Assembly: GCF_019603315.1 (NCBI RefSeq)
Contig: NZ_CP080649.1
Location: 2,676,176-2,740,175 of the forward strand
Source: Ruficoccus sp. ZRK36
GTDB taxonomy: Bacteria > Verrucomicrobiota > Verrucomicrobiia > Opitutales > Cerasicoccaceae
DNA length: 64,000 bases
Direction of reading: 5' to 3'
Below, piece by piece: positions 36,504-44,001 of this stretch. Both the position numbers and the translations under genes were made by a program. How positions within the stretch are numbered: position 1 is the stretch's first letter; the number at the start of each line of letters is the position of its first letter. Under the pieces are notes generated by a model, which ran no database searches, was not told the DNA's origin, and worked only from the letters and a program-made list of their open reading frames with translations.

Positions 36504-36692
36504 ATGTAGTACAATCAAAGCCTACATAGAGCCTAGCTGCCGGGATGAGGTGGCGCTCGCCCTGCACCGTATCGAGGGACTGACCGGGACGAGCTTCTCC
36601 GAAGTACTCGGTTTTTGGCGCGGCAAGGTGGAGGACCGTCATTCTAAACCGAGGCTCCGCAAAATGGAGTGGGGGAAGGTGTCCCTCGAACT
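36504..36692 (+). pseudogene. Remnant of P-II-like (PII-NG) gene, frameshifted and truncated
   Basis: Directly after the pump stop, the frame beginning at 36508 encodes STIKAYIEPSCRDEVALALH, then GLTGTSFSEVLGFWRGK and KVSLELP: the first two thirds of a P-II/GlnB-like protein. An ATG at 36504 is one base out of frame; removing the T at 36507 would give MSTIKAYIEPS. Similarity stops near 36692, within the 3' end of the opposite-strand GH31 gene, so the C-terminal third including BDKGR-type residues is gone. P-II-like genes are known next to CusA/CzcA operons, which supports the identity. Confidence 0.65.
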
Positions 36693-39025
36693 CCCTTCAT
36701 GGTGTGCTGCCACAACTTGGAAAAGTCGTTTTCACCTGCCTCGACCGATGCGCCGTTCACGCGAATTTCATCAAAGGCACCCACGAAGGAGAATGCCGGA
36801 ACAATTTTCCCGTATCTGTCGATTGGCTGTGCCCACTCGACCTCTATGCGCTTTTCACTTATCCGCACGTGGATGTCCATGGTCGAAATGACTCCGTCCT
36901 GGTACGACAGGCTGTCTCCGTCGTCAGCGGTGTAATGGTAAGAAAATTCTCGCTCAGTGCCGGGGCGCCCGACGATGAGGAAATTAACATGGAGCAGGTC
37001 TGTGGCATTCGCGGAGGGCTCATCCTGCCGCAGCGGGATTATTGATCCTTCTCTGAAAAACACCCCGCTTGTTTCGGCATTTTCAGTATACTGCAGCGGG
37101 CTTCCTCCCGTCGTCCACTCGTCCTCGAAGGGCTGATACCAATCCTGCCCAGCGGGTAGGGGGATGCGGCGTTTGGTTTCGTCTTCGGACAGGCAGGGGG
37201 CGTGCAGAATGGAAGGCCCGACCATGAAGGCGTCGTCAACATAGCTCAGGTCAAGCTCATCGCTGCTGTTAAAATCATAGAACAAGGGGCGCATGATGGC
37301 GTCACCCCATTCCTGTTGAGCGATGAACTGCTGATAGAGATAGGGCATCAGCAGGTAGCGCAGGCGAATAAAGGCACGGCAAATCTCCAGCGTCTTCTGG
37401 TCAAAGGCCCAGGGCTCTTGTTTTATGCTGTTGAGGACAGAGTGGTTCCTGAAGAATGGAGTGAGAAAGGCGGCCTTGAACCACGCCCGAAGCAGTTCCG
37501 GGCATGTGTCTCCATCGAAGCCTCCGACATCAGCTCCGTTGAAAGGAATGCCGCTCAGGCTGAGGTTGAGGCAGGTGGGGATCATCATCCGAAGGTAGTG
37601 GAAGTTCGCTACATTATCGCCTGTCCACACCGCCGCGTATTTGCCCCCAGAGAGAAAGTTGGACCGGGTGAGCAGGAATATTCTCTTCTCGGGGTGCGCG
37701 CGCTCAAATCCCTCCCGCGTTGCGCGGGCCATGCCGAGGGCGTACTGGTTGTGGTACGTTTCGTGCGGGTGCTCACCATCCGCACCAAAGCGCATATCGT
37801 AGGGATTACTTTTCCCCGCCGCCGGGTCGTTCATGTCCAGCCAGGCGCCGACGAATCCCTGTCGTGCGAATGTCTCGGCCTGGTCGGCCCACCACTGGCG
37901 GACTTCCTCGCGGGAAAAATCCGGAAACACGGTCAGCCCCGGCCAGACCAACCCGACGAACTCTGTCCCCTCCGGGTTCTTGCAAAAGGCATTCTGAGCA
38001 TGCCCAGTCTGATAGACATCGTAGTCAGGGTCCATCTTCACGCCGGGGTCAATGATGGGGACGACAGGGTGCCCAGCCTTACTCAGTGCCATGACCTCCT
38101 CTGCGAAGTCCGGGTTCTCTGCGGGGTCGGCGGTGAAGACGCGGAAACCGTCCATGTAGTCAATGTCCAGCCATAGCCCGTCAACCGGGATGTCATGCTG
38201 CTCAAAGTCCTCTCTGAGCGCCTGAAGCTGGCTCACCGAGCGGTAACCCCACCGCGACTGTTGGTAGCCCAGAGCCCACAGGGGCGGCCGCGGAGTCGTG
38301 CCCACCATTTGCTGGAACTGTCTTGTCAGTGCCGCCAGGGTAGGAGCCGCCAGGATGAACAAATCAGGCTGGCCGCTCTCGGCTCCGATCAGGATGGCAT
38401 CTTCATCTCCCGTGCATACTTGGGTGAAGCTTTCGATCTTCAGCCGGGCAGCAATGGATAGAAAGGTGGCCTGCGGGTTATTATAAAGCAGGCCGACCCA
38501 GCCAGCTGGCGTCTGGATGATCAGGTAGGGTACCGAAACGTAGTACGGGTCGGGCCGACCTGCCACGATCTGCTCAAGCGGGAAATCGGCGAATACATCG
38601 GTGTTCCAGAATTTCGTGCGAAGGCCTGTGTGCTCGAATCCCGTGACTTTTGACCCCGCCCCGTAGTAGCGGTACTCCTGCTGATGGCAGAAGCGGAACA
38701 TCGATGCGGTGCCACATTTACCAAACGTACGCTGAGGCAAAGACTGGAGCAGTGTCTGCCCATCGGTGTTGCTCAGGTGTATCGCGCCCTCAGGGGTGAT
38801 TTCAAGTTGGTAAGGTTGACCGTCCTCGACGGCTTCCGGATTCAGCTCTGCCTGAGAGTAGTTTTCATCCCAGGACGCACCGCGAACGGTCAGCCGGAAT
38901 ATGCCCGGACGGCAGGTGTTCACCTCCACCGGTCGTGTCTCACCTGCGAATTGGAAATGCGCCTTAGGCTCGTAGCCGCTGGCGAACTGGAAGTTTTGGC
39001 TGAATGGGTATTTGTTAAAGTACAT
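36644..39025 (-). CDS. GH31 alpha-glycosidase (glucosidase/xylosidase-like)
   Basis: A 793-residue family GH31 enzyme without signal peptide. The catalytic barrel has DGLWLDIDYMDGFRVFT, the nucleophile Asp in GAWLDMNDPA (family WxDMNEP; here Asp replaces Glu) and the acid/base Asp in WTGDNVANF. FNGADVGGF and FRNHS follow. N-terminal beta-sandwich (1-230) and C-terminal strands are present. Substrate (alpha-glucoside, xyloside or other) cannot be read. The start is 6 bp after the lyase stop, so they are co-transcribed. The last ~15 residues (RGTPSPTPFCGASV) are read from antisense of a P-II remnant, so the original stop may have been lost. Confidence 0.88.
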   Translation of the reverse strand: MYFNKYPFSQNFQFASGYEPKAHFQFAGETRPVEVNTCRPGIFRLTVRGASWDENYSQAELNPEAVEDGQPYQLEITPEGAIHLSNTDGQTLLQSLPQRTFGKCGTASMFRFCHQQEYRYYGAGSKVTGFEHTGLRTKFWNTDVFADFPLEQIVAGRPDPYYVSVPYLIIQTPAGWVGLLYNNPQATFLSIAARLKIESFTQVCTGDEDAILIGAESGQPDLFILAAPTLAALTRQFQQMVGTTPRPPLWALGYQQSRWGYRSVSQLQALREDFEQHDIPVDGLWLDIDYMDGFRVFTADPAENPDFAEEVMALSKAGHPVVPIIDPGVKMDPDYDVYQTGHAQNAFCKNPEGTEFVGLVWPGLTVFPDFSREEVRQWWADQAETFARQGFVGAWLDMNDPAAGKSNPYDMRFGADGEHPHETYHNQYALGMARATREGFERAHPEKRIFLLTRSNFLSGGKYAAVWTGDNVANFHYLRMMIPTCLNLSLSGIPFNGADVGGFDGDTCPELLRAWFKAAFLTPFFRNHSVLNSIKQEPWAFDQKTLEICRAFIRLRYLLMPYLYQQFIAQQEWGDAIMRPLFYDFNSSDELDLSYVDDAFMVGPSILHAPCLSEDETKRRIPLPAGQDWYQPFEDEWTTGGSPLQYTENAETSGVFFREGSIIPLRQDEPSANATDLLHVNFLIVGRPGTEREFSYHYTADDGDSLSYQDGVISTMDIHVRISEKRIEVEWAQPIDRYGKIVPAFSFVGAFDEIRVNGASVEAGENDFSKLWQHTMKGVRGTPSPTPFCGASV

Positions 39026-39031
39026 AGTATA

Positions 39032-41266
39032 CTAGTGAAGGTCGAAGGTGATGGATCCGCCTGGAGTGATGGGTTGACGGCTGTTGTCCTCGGAGATCAG
39101 GACAATATCCTGCGCTCCCTTGGCGTTTTGGAGCTCATAGCTGACTCCGTCTGCTGACTTTGTCCGGACGAAGTAAACAGTGCTGGTGCTCGATAGCGTG
39201 TAAGTCGTCTCGCCGAGGCTAAAGCTCACCGCGCCGTCCGCTCCGGCCCACTCGGAGCCGTCGTCAGCACGGCCTTGTATCCCCAGCAGAGTGTTTATCT
39301 GGAGTTCCGGAAGGGCCTCGGGCGACCACTTCTGCGGAGTTTGCCCATCAGGTGAGAGCATGAGCTGCCAGGACTTTTCTCCTGCCTCCAGGTTCCACTT
39401 GCCGGGAGCCTTTGCGCTAGCGTTGAGAGTCGGGTGGCCCTGCATGACGGGCATGAGGATGTTGACAAAGCTGGCGGGAGCTTCGGCCTCTTTTGCATAG
39501 ATGATGGTATGCAGCGGGTGCCGCTTGAACGTCCGCCATCCGAGCACGGGGTCCGTTTGACCGGACACGCTGGAAACCTCTAGTGCGCTGCTCTCAAGCG
39601 GGTACAACTCGATGCCTCGCCCCTCGCTGTCATGGGCCGAGACGGCCAGCGTTTCGGCATCGATCTCCGTCGGTGCGTCGAAGTGGAAGAGAGCTTCGTA
39701 GCGGTGATGGCCACTCCCTAGTAGACGGTCCCAGACCACAAACAGAGCCGGCTCCAGGTACAGTACGCTGCGGACATGGCGAATGCTCTTGTCCAGCTCG
39801 CCCTCGTACCCGATCGGCCAATAGTTGCGCCGCTCATAAACGGCCTGCTGATAGCCGGCGTCATAGACACCCTCGGCCAGCACAAACCCAGGGGTGGCAC
39901 ACCATCGGTTTTCGACTTTGGTCTGCGATCCGCTCGCATGCTGTTGCTTGCCATCGACGAGTAGGGTGTTGTGGGCTGCAGTGCCGAGCGCGTAGCTGCG
40001 CCACTCGGAGCTGTCGTAGATACAGTGGCCCGCCTCCGTGAGCAGCTCCCGCCCGCCTACTGACAGTATCAAGCCGAGACGGTCCTGGTGGAAGTGCTCG
40101 ATGCCGGGAGGGCCAGCATCGAACCACAGCGTAAAGTCATCGGGGCTCCATCCACTGCGAAAGATCGCGTAGCCGGCATCCGGGAGCCAATCGCAAAGGG
40201 CGGGAGCTTGCCCTTGATCTCCTCCCGACACCACATAGGAAATTTCCGGGTCGTCCCACAGATCGAGGGATGAGCGCAGCGTGCTTTTTGTATTGAGCGG
40301 CAGACCGTCGTTAAACATCGGGACATTACCGGCCTGGTCCATCATGGCCCGCTCATAGGCGTACATGCTCCGCAGACCCTGCTCAAAGTACGCGCTGGGG
40401 CTTGTCCCGGCCGTTTTCAGTAGGTCCAGCGCCCGACGGAAGCGGGAGATCGTCACGTCGTGGTACCAGGGGCTCAGCTCTTTCTGCGAGCCATCAGCGT
40501 TGACCTGACGGCTCATCTCTTTCTCCAGTCTAGCCAGAGCCTGCTCCCGGTATGCCGGAGAGGCCTTCCACTCCGGGAACAGCATGGCAAGCGTCAGCAG
40601 GCCGAGCGCTTCATTCGCGACCCAGTTCCCCGTCCTGCGGGGGCCGGCCTTGAGCACGCCTGCCAGGTACTCGGCATGCTCCATCGCGGACTTGACGAAA
40701 GTATAGTTTGTGTCCGGCGTGAACGCTTCCGCATCTATGAAGCTGACGTAGGCGTAGGGCCACGTGTCGTCCATGCGTATGGCGGCTTCGAGTGAGCGCC
40801 ATATCAGGGCAGCCTGTTCGGGGGAGTCCTTGGTGGCATCTTGTGCCATCCAGCTTTGCATCTGCTCGACCCAGGCCTGCGTGTAGCGCTCATCTCCCGT
40901 GAGCAGGTAGGCATCGGCCAGCGGGCGCCAGAAGGGCATGCGGTTGATGTAGTATTCGAACTCGCGGGTGTATACAGGTGACTCGGTCGGGACGGGATTC
41001 GCAGTCCAGTTGATAGTCTCTCCGAAGTCGATATAGAGCGGGTCTTCGCGGTACTCTGGTGGGATAATCCCCTGCACCGGAATACGCCCCTCGACGATGG
41101 CGTCAGCGATAGCGACCGGATTTTGCTCAATCCTGGTCTCGTGGAAATGGTTTCTGAAGAGTTCCTGCCACTGCGAGTCTGTGAAGTCCCGGCGATAATC
41201 CAGGTAGAGCGCCTTGGCAGTCTCTGTGTCGTCCGCAGCAAGCGCCTCCTGCACAGGCTCGAGCAT
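39032..41266 (-). CDS. Heparinase II/III-family polysaccharide lyase (catalytic part)
   Basis: 744 residues from ATG 41266. An alpha-barrel (TGNWVANEALGLLTLAMLFP, ELSPWYHDVTISRFRRALDL) precedes the heparinase II/III beta-sandwich with EHFHQDRLGLILSVGGRELL and GTAAHNTLLVDGKQQ, the His/Tyr-rich signature of PL12/PL15/PL17-type lyases of acidic polysaccharides such as alginate or heparin. No signal peptide is present in this frame. The frame stays open upstream of 41266 through EEDFWARIRWDASPMLEPV, which looks like genuine lyase N-terminus, back into the A10 run at 41323-41332. The real protein is therefore probably longer, fused to the upstream exported CBM-like part by a -1 shift. Confidence 0.85.
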   Translation of the reverse strand: MLEPVQEALAADDTETAKALYLDYRRDFTDSQWQELFRNHFHETRIEQNPVAIADAIVEGRIPVQGIIPPEYREDPLYIDFGETINWTANPVPTESPVYTREFEYYINRMPFWRPLADAYLLTGDERYTQAWVEQMQSWMAQDATKDSPEQAALIWRSLEAAIRMDDTWPYAYVSFIDAEAFTPDTNYTFVKSAMEHAEYLAGVLKAGPRRTGNWVANEALGLLTLAMLFPEWKASPAYREQALARLEKEMSRQVNADGSQKELSPWYHDVTISRFRRALDLLKTAGTSPSAYFEQGLRSMYAYERAMMDQAGNVPMFNDGLPLNTKSTLRSSLDLWDDPEISYVVSGGDQGQAPALCDWLPDAGYAIFRSGWSPDDFTLWFDAGPPGIEHFHQDRLGLILSVGGRELLTEAGHCIYDSSEWRSYALGTAAHNTLLVDGKQQHASGSQTKVENRWCATPGFVLAEGVYDAGYQQAVYERRNYWPIGYEGELDKSIRHVRSVLYLEPALFVVWDRLLGSGHHRYEALFHFDAPTEIDAETLAVSAHDSEGRGIELYPLESSALEVSSVSGQTDPVLGWRTFKRHPLHTIIYAKEAEAPASFVNILMPVMQGHPTLNASAKAPGKWNLEAGEKSWQLMLSPDGQTPQKWSPEALPELQINTLLGIQGRADDGSEWAGADGAVSFSLGETTYTLSSTSTVYFVRTKSADGVSYELQNAKGAQDIVLISEDNSRQPITPGGSITFDLH

Positions 41267-41313
41267 GGGCGAGGCATCCCATCTGATCCTGGCCCAGAAA
41301 TCCTCCTCAGAGA

Positions 41314-41991
41314 TCAGCGCTCTTTTTTTTTTCCGAGTACTGGAGTGAGCGGTGTCTGAGGGGCAGCCTCTTCAAACGTTACATGGCTCCAGCAGACGGT
41401 GCCCTGAGTCTGGGCACTGGTTAGCTGTATGTTGACCAGACGTGTCTGTGGCGGAAACTCAACCACTGCGTCGATCTGTGTCCATTCTTCGGGCAGCTGG
41501 GTGGTTTCGATTTGAGCCGGTGGGCCGACGCTCAGCTCCACTTTGTTTCCCAGGCCGATATACAGGTGTTGCCCGAGTTTGGCATCCTGCCCATCAGCGT
41601 TTTTGCACAAAACACGTATGACCAGGCCGGGGGTGTCCGGCTTTACGGCCATACCGGGTTCGGTCTTGATCCAGGCGCTTATCCGGTAGCGTTTGCCTTC
41701 TTGTACGGCTATGGCCTCTGTCGATGAGAATGCATAGCGCGCAAAAGACGCCGAACTCATCGCGACACTGGGCCGATTTTCCGGCCCGTCATGGCTGATC
41801 GAGTACTCGCACTTGCTCTGCGCAGAGCTGGATGGGACGAATAGGTACCAGCCATCCCGGCCCTTCTCGAAAGAGCCATTGTGGAGGAGTTGCTCGCTGC
41901 CATAGCCAGCGCTGCATGTGAAGGTTGCTGCTGCCAGCAGCAAACTCGTCCACGTGCGTTTGCATAAAACCTGAATCGAAAACGAAGCCAT
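41314..41991 (-). CDS. Exported CBM-like domain protein, probably the N-terminal part of the lyase
   Basis: 225 residues from ATG 41991. A signal peptide is visible (about 1-28, TSLLLAAATFTCSAGYGS), then one jelly-roll carbohydrate-binding-like domain: LLHNGSFEKGRDGWYLF, YRISAWIKTEPG and the closing TVCWSHVTFEEAAP, as in CBM4/CBM16-type modules. The frame ends in GKKKER and TGA at 41314, immediately after an A10 run. The -1 frame at that run leads straight into the lyase. So this is either a separately secreted CBM protein or, more likely, the first half of one exported CBM-lyase. Confidence 0.7.
   Translation of the reverse strand: MASFSIQVLCKRTWTSLLLAAATFTCSAGYGSEQLLHNGSFEKGRDGWYLFVPSSSAQSKCEYSISHDGPENRPSVAMSSASFARYAFSSTEAIAVQEGKRYRISAWIKTEPGMAVKPDTPGLVIRVLCKNADGQDAKLGQHLYIGLGNKVELSVGPPAQIETTQLPEEWTQIDAVVEFPPQTRLVNIQLTSAQTQGTVCWSHVTFEEAAPQTPLTPVLGKKKER
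41323..41332 (-). other. A10 run: candidate -1 frameshift/slippage site
   Basis: On the coding strand GGA-AAA-AAA-AAA-GAG runs in the CBM frame; the terminal A-AAA-AAA heptamer fits X-XXY-YYZ. A -1 shift gives AGA-GCG-CTG-ATC and enters the lyase frame; zero frame stops 9 codons' distance or less later (TGA at 41316-41314). A one-A insertion would have the same effect, so transcript slippage, a real mutation or a homopolymer sequencing error are alternatives. Confidence 0.6.
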
Positions 41992-42032: not shown

Positions 42033-42809
42033 CTAGCGACGTGCCTTCCTGAGGCGTACGAGCAGTCCTACGCAAAGGATGCCGCCCCACAGCGCGAAGT
42101 CTGAAGCTTCGGGGATCGCATTGATACTCACATTGCTGAATGTGATGCTCTTGGCGGCGGTTCCGCTGCTGTCGTTGACGAACGCGATCGTATCAAACGT
42201 CATGCCGCCGGTGGTGGTAAATCCGGTCGTGTATAAATCTGAGCCGTTGAGGGCGACGGTTACATTCACATTGCTGCTCTCGTCGAGAAAGTAGGTGATG
42301 GAGAGGGCGCCGTTGAGCGTGTTGGAATAGCTGCCGGTGTTCGTGGTGTCGGTAGTCCGGTCACTCCCGAAAAACATATCCCCGTCTGTCCCCGTCTCGT
42401 AGGTCGTGTCGGACGAGGTCTGCCTGACGATGACAAAGATACCGGCATCGTTGGATGCTGAGGCATTGAACGCCGAACCATCCTCCAGCGGTGTGCCTCC
42501 GCTATTGAAAAGCCCAACGCGAAACAGCCCGAACCCCTCGGTCTGGTTGAAATTCATGCTCAGGGTCACGCTCTCGCCAGCGCTCATGACGCTCAGCGTG
42601 TCCGACAGGTTTGCTCCAAAGGTGTAGTAGCTGCTGCCGTTGGCGTCCATGGTAACGGCGTCGTTACCGGCATCGACGTCGAGCGTCCCATTGGTGTTAC
42701 TGACGTAGGTCAGGTCGCCTCCGTCTATGATGACAGCATGGGTGGAGGTGACGGTCAGGAGTGAAGCGATTCCGGCAAGGATAAGTTTGGAGCTCAGGTA
42801 TGGTTTCAT
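42033..42809 (-). CDS. PEP-CTERM sorting-domain protein
   Basis: 258 residues: signal peptide (1-25, MKPYLSSKLILAGIASLLTV), a beta-rich Ser/Thr/Gly/Asp-rich body with the look of a LamG/jelly-roll surface protein, and a C-terminal tail INAIPEASDFALWGG followed by a hydrophobic helix and RLRKARR. The P-E motif, helix and basic end are the PEP-CTERM signal processed by exosortase; the motif here is IPEAS, a common Verrucomicrobia variant. It heads the minus-strand CBM-lyase-GH31 operon (41 bp to the CBM start) and is probably displayed or secreted with those enzymes. No catalytic motif seen. Confidence 0.8.
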   Translation of the reverse strand: MKPYLSSKLILAGIASLLTVTSTHAVIIDGGDLTYVSNTNGTLDVDAGNDAVTMDANGSSYYTFGANLSDTLSVMSAGESVTLSMNFNQTEGFGLFRVGLFNSGGTPLEDGSAFNASASNDAGIFVIVRQTSSDTTYETGTDGDMFFGSDRTTDTTNTGSYSNTLNGALSITYFLDESSNVNVTVALNGSDLYTTGFTTTGGMTFDTIAFVNDSSGTAAKSITFSNVSINAIPEASDFALWGGILCVGLLVRLRKARR

Positions 42810-42978: not shown

Positions 42979-44001
42979 GTGAGCAACCGAGTAACTATCC
43001 GTGAAATTGCCCAAAAGGCTGGTGTCCACCATGCCACTGTGTCGCGTGCCCTGCGTAATGACCCGCAGATTGCGACGGAGACGCGCGAGCACATTTTGAA
43101 GCTTGCTCGACGGATGGGGTACCGCCCGGACCCGGCGCTGTCCTCGCTCATGCGTTACCGTAGCGCCAAGGCCGCGCATCACTACCAGGCGGCCTTGGCA
43201 TGGGCCACAAACTATCCCACGCGTGACGGCTGGCTGACCCATGAGAAAGTCGGGTACTATAGCGGAGCACTGCAACGGGCCGAGGAGCTTGGCTACTCGT
43301 TGGATCCCTTCTGGCTCGGGGAGGCGGGCATGAGCGGTGCACGAGCCTCTGCCATCCTCAAGGCCCGCAACATTCAGGGGGTCATTCTGCTACCCATGCC
43401 GAAGGCGAATGTCAGTATCGACCTGGATTGGGACCAGTTTTCGGCCGTCTCGATCAGCCATACGGTGACATCTCCGCACCTCAATGTCGTGACCAATCAC
43501 CATTTCCGGTCAATGGCGCTGCTCATGAAGCAACTGGATGCGCTCGGCTATAAACGGCCGGGTTTTGCCTGCTTGCGGCGCATTCATGAGTCTGTCGATC
43601 GAGCATGGGCTGCCGCCTTTGAAATGTATCGGCCAGGCGCCGGCAGCCGCGCGGACATCCCCTTGTATATTTACGAAGAAGAGTCACTGCCTGCCTTTGA
43701 ACATTGGGTCAGGACCTATAAGCCAGACGTTATCGTCGCCCACAGTGATAATATCATGCACTACCTCAAGGAGATGCAGCTTCGCGTGCCCGAGGATATC
43801 GGTGTCGCCATGGCTGCGCGCCACGGTGTGAGTAGTGATTGCTCAGGGATCGACGAAAACAATAACACGGTGGGAAGAGTCGTCGTGAATGTGGTCGTCG
43901 AAATGATTCACAACAATGAGCGTGGCATCCCCCAAGTGCCCATCACCACGCTGGTCGAAGGATTCTGGGTGAATGGCAGCACGCTGCGGACGAGTCTTTA
44001 G
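42979..44001 (+). CDS. LacI-family transcriptional regulator (first copy)
   Basis: 340 residues from GTG 42979. The N-terminal HTH is VTIREIAQKAGVHHATVSRALRND with the hinge RMGYRPDPALSSLMRYR. The periplasmic-binding-like effector domain follows (LKARNIQGVILLPMP, GYKRPGFACLR). It is divergent from the PEP-CTERM/lyase operon across a 169-bp gap and is the likely sugar-responsive regulator of that operon. The 'PDPxLSxLxxYR' hinge is shared with the LacI at 57741, so both belong to one subfamily. TTGACA at about 42942 may be its -35. Confidence 0.92.
   Translation: MSNRVTIREIAQKAGVHHATVSRALRNDPQIATETREHILKLARRMGYRPDPALSSLMRYRSAKAAHHYQAALAWATNYPTRDGWLTHEKVGYYSGALQRAEELGYSLDPFWLGEAGMSGARASAILKARNIQGVILLPMPKANVSIDLDWDQFSAVSISHTVTSPHLNVVTNHHFRSMALLMKQLDALGYKRPGFACLRRIHESVDRAWAAAFEMYRPGAGSRADIPLYIYEEESLPAFEHWVRTYKPDVIVAHSDNIMHYLKEMQLRVPEDIGVAMAARHGVSSDCSGIDENNNTVGRVVVNVVVEMIHNNERGIPQVPITTLVEGFWVNGSTLRTSL

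Follow-up and report, generated by a model that had tools for sequence, protein, structure and literature searches.

On the minus strand of the 64,000-nt stretch of Ruficoccus sp. ZRK36 DNA analysed here (the window), the gene of a protein with a CBM_4_9 domain is followed by that of a polysaccharide lyase in another reading frame, and the two meet at a run of ten A residues (Table 1). The CBM protein (MASFSIQ...) has a signal-peptide-like N-terminus, MASFSIQVLCKRTWTSLLLAAATFTCSA, scores 27.0 bits against CBM_4_9, just above the Pfam gathering cutoff of 25.9, and is modelled as mostly strand (pLDDT 74.5). The lyase matches Hepar_II_III_N (202.4 bits) and Hepar_II_III_C (100.2 bits), both above cutoffs, and keeps the residues that are invariant among its relatives (N235, Y289, H412 and H453). 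Its best sequence and fold matches are heparinase III/HepC (PL12; PDB 4mmh, 5jmd, 4fnv), with which it shares both Pfam domains. Judged from these matches, it is a relative of heparinase III. The two NCBIfam HepC equivalog scores, 180 of 700 and 118 of 600 bits, lie far under what each model demands, so the enzyme is to be read as a relative of HepC.

Table 1. Features at and around the CBM-lyase junction (positions in the window).
Feature	Position	Strand	Basis or remark
GH31 glycosidase, downstream neighbour	36644..39025	-	no apparent signal peptide
Heparinase III-like polysaccharide lyase, Hepar_II_III_N + C, -1 frame	39032..41329	-	765 codons from the run; stop-free inside
First standard lyase start, ATG	41264..41266	-	a start here drops the conserved N-terminal segment; no signal peptide
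ISEEDFWARIRWD, conserved lyase-domain start, three codons 3´ of the run and 5´ of the first ATG	41276..41314	-	motif test; model helix 8-16
Secreted protein of the CBM_4_9 family (225 aa), C-terminus ...PLTPVLGKKKER*	41314..41991	-	CBM_4_9 match; homologues L033-L039
Stretch with both frames open, A10 within	41317..41371	-	779-aa open frame; codon-usage path
A10 run (T10 on the plus strand)	41323..41332	-	no A10 elsewhere in the genome; heptamer A_AAA_AAA in phase with the CBM frame
Weak candidate for a nascent-RNA stem-loop immediately 5´ of the run	41333..41402	-	z -3.24 when the run is included
PEP-CTERM-type exported protein, upstream neighbour	42033..42809	-	similar genes precede relatives' CBM genes
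LacI-family regulator, divergent	42979..44001	+	

The junction reads GGA AAA AAA AAA GAG CGC TGA on the minus strand, with the stop of the CBM frame 9 nt 3´ of the A10 run. The lyase frame is -1 relative to the CBM frame and stays open upstream through the run as far as an in-frame TGA (41372-41374), so that the full open frame including the lyase comprises 779 aa and both frames are open for about 55 bp around the run. One base added at A10 brings the intact lyase frame of 765 codons into register. The layout thus agrees with the first-pass annotation, which had described an ORF with a signal peptide and a CBM ending just past the run, a lyase frame without signal peptide that is open back through it, and a slippery heptamer A_AAA_AAA at the junction; the heptamer is in phase with the CBM frame (GG A_AAA_AAA).

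Reading of the lyase appears to begin at the junction itself. A Viterbi path based on codon usage assigns lyase-frame coding signal from 41315 onward, and between the upstream stop and ATG 41266 the lyase frame contains no ATG, GTG or TTG. The 13 residues of ISEEDFWARIRWD in this interval correspond to the beginning of the relatives' lyase domain (ITEEDLLDHLDFT, ITDEEFLGALDLT and LTDAEFFAKLDLD), and in four relatives the local alignments begin at lyase residue 4 or 6. In a motif test with seven motif-showing relatives, a subset picked after the alignment had been viewed, the segment gave a shuffle p of 0.0002 and ranked second among the 44,103 13-mers of the strand. This test replaced one with an HMM of the whole lyase, which was uninformative for the N-terminal 21 residues (18 of 300 shuffles were equally good). 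The structure model of the lyase is poor overall (pLDDT 65) and has a helix at residues 8-16 with a pLDDT near 78. The lyase has neither a start nor a signal peptide of its own that would retain the conserved N-terminus. Because homology and coding signal both set in at the junction and before ATG 41266, the lyase looks as if it were built for reading from the junction.

Taken alone, the run is no rarer than chance predicts. The 3.76 Mb genome (two contigs) has one A10, that at the junction, and seven A9, where 1.6 and 7.1, respectively, are expected under a dinucleotide model; this match to the chance prediction counts against slippage. That the single A10 falls within a frame junction spanning about 55 bp is unexpected by chance, and this speaks for a causal link between the run and the break between the frames. 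The link could be slippage, a replication indel or a base-calling error. As to codon choice at the site, AAA makes up 33% of lysine codons and GGA 12% of glycine codons, and the 314 ORFs sampled contain 27 KKK tripeptides, only one of which is written entirely with AAA.

Relatives provide both arrangements of the CBM as ordinary genes. Stand-alone exported homologues of about the same length occur in several genomes (L033-L039), three of them ending in a TPLT/TPLS-type tail like that of the present CBM, and in three cases (L114, L115 and L116 in G163, G219 and G075) a CBM of the same family continues without a frame change into a Hepar_II_III_C enzyme. The free CBM and the fused enzyme that had been proposed as the two products of a shift therefore have counterparts, and the suggested comparison with relatives found three genes fused in one frame; none keeps a split at an A-run, which is absent from all relatives, both in the matches from 373 genomes of the order and in a wider search of genome contigs. 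Furthermore, the enzyme of the three fusions belongs to another subfamily without a Hepar_II_III_N match, which speaks against slippage of the present lyase. The lyase relatives inspected have either their own signal peptide (e.g., L003, L005, L007, L008 and L027) or an in-frame N-terminal domain (L041, L056, L058 and L076). In G219, which has the closest relative of the lyase (34%) in a syntenic position (L074/L117), a PEP-CTERM-type gene comes first, a two-module CBM gene second and a lyase with its own signal peptide third. Homologues encoding two separate exported proteins, which the first-pass annotation would have taken as a refutation, are thus found in the closest syntenic relative but not in the three other cases. 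A plausible history is that a deletion took the signal peptide of the lyase and joined the two genes.

Production and export of the lyase probably depend on slippage of RNA polymerase at the A10 run, and a shift by the ribosome is less likely. The exported CBM would be followed by a -1-frame lyase no longer equipped with a start and signal peptide of its own. Slippage at the run joining them would add an A in a fraction of transcripts; the majority of messages would then yield free CBM and the minority an exported CBM-lyase with the linker TPLTPVLGKKKR-ALISEED. In favour of this, the run exceeds the length of about nine A/T at a junction by which poly-A slippage genes are recognised, and slippage is efficient at 9 A/T (PMC5009743). 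A second mark of such genes, conservation of the run at the same junction in relatives, is not seen here, and with the A-run split in no relative, slippage has no backing from conservation. Of the shift idea in the first-pass annotation, which had invoked dnaX, it is the transcriptional form that fits better. An in-phase slippery heptamer is common to the junction and to the -1 ribosomal frameshift site of E. coli dnaX (A_AAA_AAA here, A_AAA_AAG there), but neither an SD-like stimulator 5´ of the run nor a significant downstream hairpin was found at the CBM-lyase junction. A hairpin with suitable spacing can be drawn downstream; at z +0.37 and -0.57 it is no better than shuffled sequences and was not kept as a candidate frameshift stimulator. 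A dnaX-like -1 ribosomal shift is therefore less likely than transcriptional slippage. The stem-loop on the 5´ side of the run is reminiscent of a nascent-RNA stem in the Roseiflexus IS element (PMC5009743). It is weakly suggestive and not exceptional for the region, with 20% of gene windows from the same region equally stable and 3.4% also having a closed 3´ end, and such an unremarkable structure does not help the case for slippage. It is fairly likely that the run really is A10 in the DNA, and slippage as the way in which the lyase is expressed stands at roughly even. What we infer as a whole, namely a true A10, slippage at this site, its rate and its upkeep by selection, falls a little below that. 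One further possibility, which we regard as rather doubtful, is that A10 acts as an export switch in a carbohydrate-utilisation operon, setting the ratio of free CBM to exported CBM-lyase by slippage and replacing the former signal peptide of the lyase.

A run of ten A residues is of sufficient length to slip. In tssM1 of Citrobacter rodentium, A11 before an early stop gives 20-25% transcriptional slippage and both products are needed (PMC4256274). The CBM-lyase junction likewise has poly-A just 5´ of an early stop, the rest of the protein in the downstream frame, and two potential products. It differs in protein and run length (tssM1 has 11 A), in that slippage is proven for tssM1 and proposed here, and in that the short form here is a recognised type of stand-alone protein. 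Shigella spa13 has A10, as here, and makes 25-30% extended product (PMC6260861, PMC5009743); slippage reaches a C-terminal extension there and would do so here, but spa13 is a type III secretion gene with proven slippage, whereas the gene described here, with slippage proposed, is one for polysaccharide degradation. If the proposal is correct, a secreted polysaccharide lyase joins the small set of bacterial poly-A slippage genes, and slippage gives an enzyme its export signal and binding domain while still releasing free binding protein. It would then also follow that such genes get annotated as broken or cytoplasmic.

A slippery A9/A10 run and products of two lengths are also features of Thermus dnaX, of two-ORF dnaX genes with A9 or A10 (PMC5009743, PMC3711429), and of dnaX in the family of Ruficoccus sp. 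ZRK36. One of the seven A9 runs of the genome lies in dnaX (L083, G000:C1:2866139-2866147), and a run is present at the same place and in the same phase in all ten family genomes compared (L119-L128), as A9 in nine and as A10 in G006. The zero frame continues to tau in seven of the ten, Ruficoccus sp. ZRK36 included. It stops right after the run in G004 and G005, where tau would need a shift, and the extra base in G006 leads to an early stop. With the dnaX run conserved across the family, recoding at A-runs is to be expected in this lineage and is probably routine there. The CBM-lyase run, by contrast, is not conserved.

The main alternative to slippage, and one that we place on the unlikely side, is a sequencing or assembly error that hides a true A11 and an ordinary single-frame CBM-lyase gene. 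The longest A-run of a genome is the likeliest site of such an error, which counts against slippage; this one is a single base short of fusion, single-frame CBM-lyases occur in relatives, and the presence of a 6 kb cloning-vector-like contig shows that the assembly was not carefully curated. Against an error, the CBM homologues end at the same place as stand-alone proteins, and the A9 of dnaX agrees with most relatives, i.e., other long runs were read correctly. Across 450 kb (386 kb elsewhere in the genome plus the window), with 26 runs of 7 or more in coding segments, long runs coincided with no further frame switch; none of the 38 flagged same-strand frame switches had a run of >6 within 60 bp, in a scan that did not flag the junction itself, with its gap of 46 bp between the two coding segments. 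A start-codon criterion in the same scan had no power, a start lying near almost every switch, and the homopolymer comparison alone was used. Up to A9 the assembly seems sound, and A10 versus A11 lies beyond that comparison.

An authentic A10 could also have arisen by a replication indel, ordinary or phase-variable, within a fused gene; the lyase would then be off in the sequenced clone, with leaky slippage at most. A-runs are mutational hotspots, surface and secreted proteins are typical products of phase-variable genes, and unconserved frame transitions and singletons were treated as probable indels or errors in a published survey (PMC3711429), which also weighs against slippage; that no relative keeps the A-run split agrees with this. 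We nevertheless consider an indel clearly unlikely, as the lyase frame is undecayed and, with slippage of about 25% at A10 as in other bacteria, some expression of the gene would remain. Finally, two separate proteins may be made. The CBM would be exported, and the lyase would stay in the cytoplasm as a leaderless protein starting at ATG 41266 or at a rare CTG that overlaps the stop of the CBM frame; translational coupling may be involved. The adjacent GH31 glycosidase likewise has no evident signal peptide, and the toroid helix begins at about residue 21, such that ATG 41266 retains most of the domain. The missing SD was dropped as an argument against this start, the genome being SD-poor. This arrangement is quite improbable in view of the conserved ISEEDFWARIRWD upstream of ATG 41266 and of the inspected lyase relatives, which have a signal peptide or an N-terminal domain of their own, and it leaves unexplained why the sole A10 lies at the junction.

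Some observations concern the genome and its relatives more generally. SD 5-mers are nearly absent before starts, with 5.8% of 276 genes (window and L086-L104) compared to 3.6% at a control position. The second contig (L105, G000:C2:1-6050) encodes a His-tag/T7-tag leader, LacI, kanamycin phosphotransferase, TetA-like fragments and a P2-gpI-like tail protein, names that come from reading the translations; this content resembles that of an expression plasmid and suggests that the assembly was contaminated in the laboratory. In relatives (L033-L039, L106-L116), a PEP-CTERM-type protein, a CBM of this family, an enzyme of the Hepar_II_III type and a LacI regulator form a recurrent exported cassette, in which the gene order varies and the CBM is free or fused.
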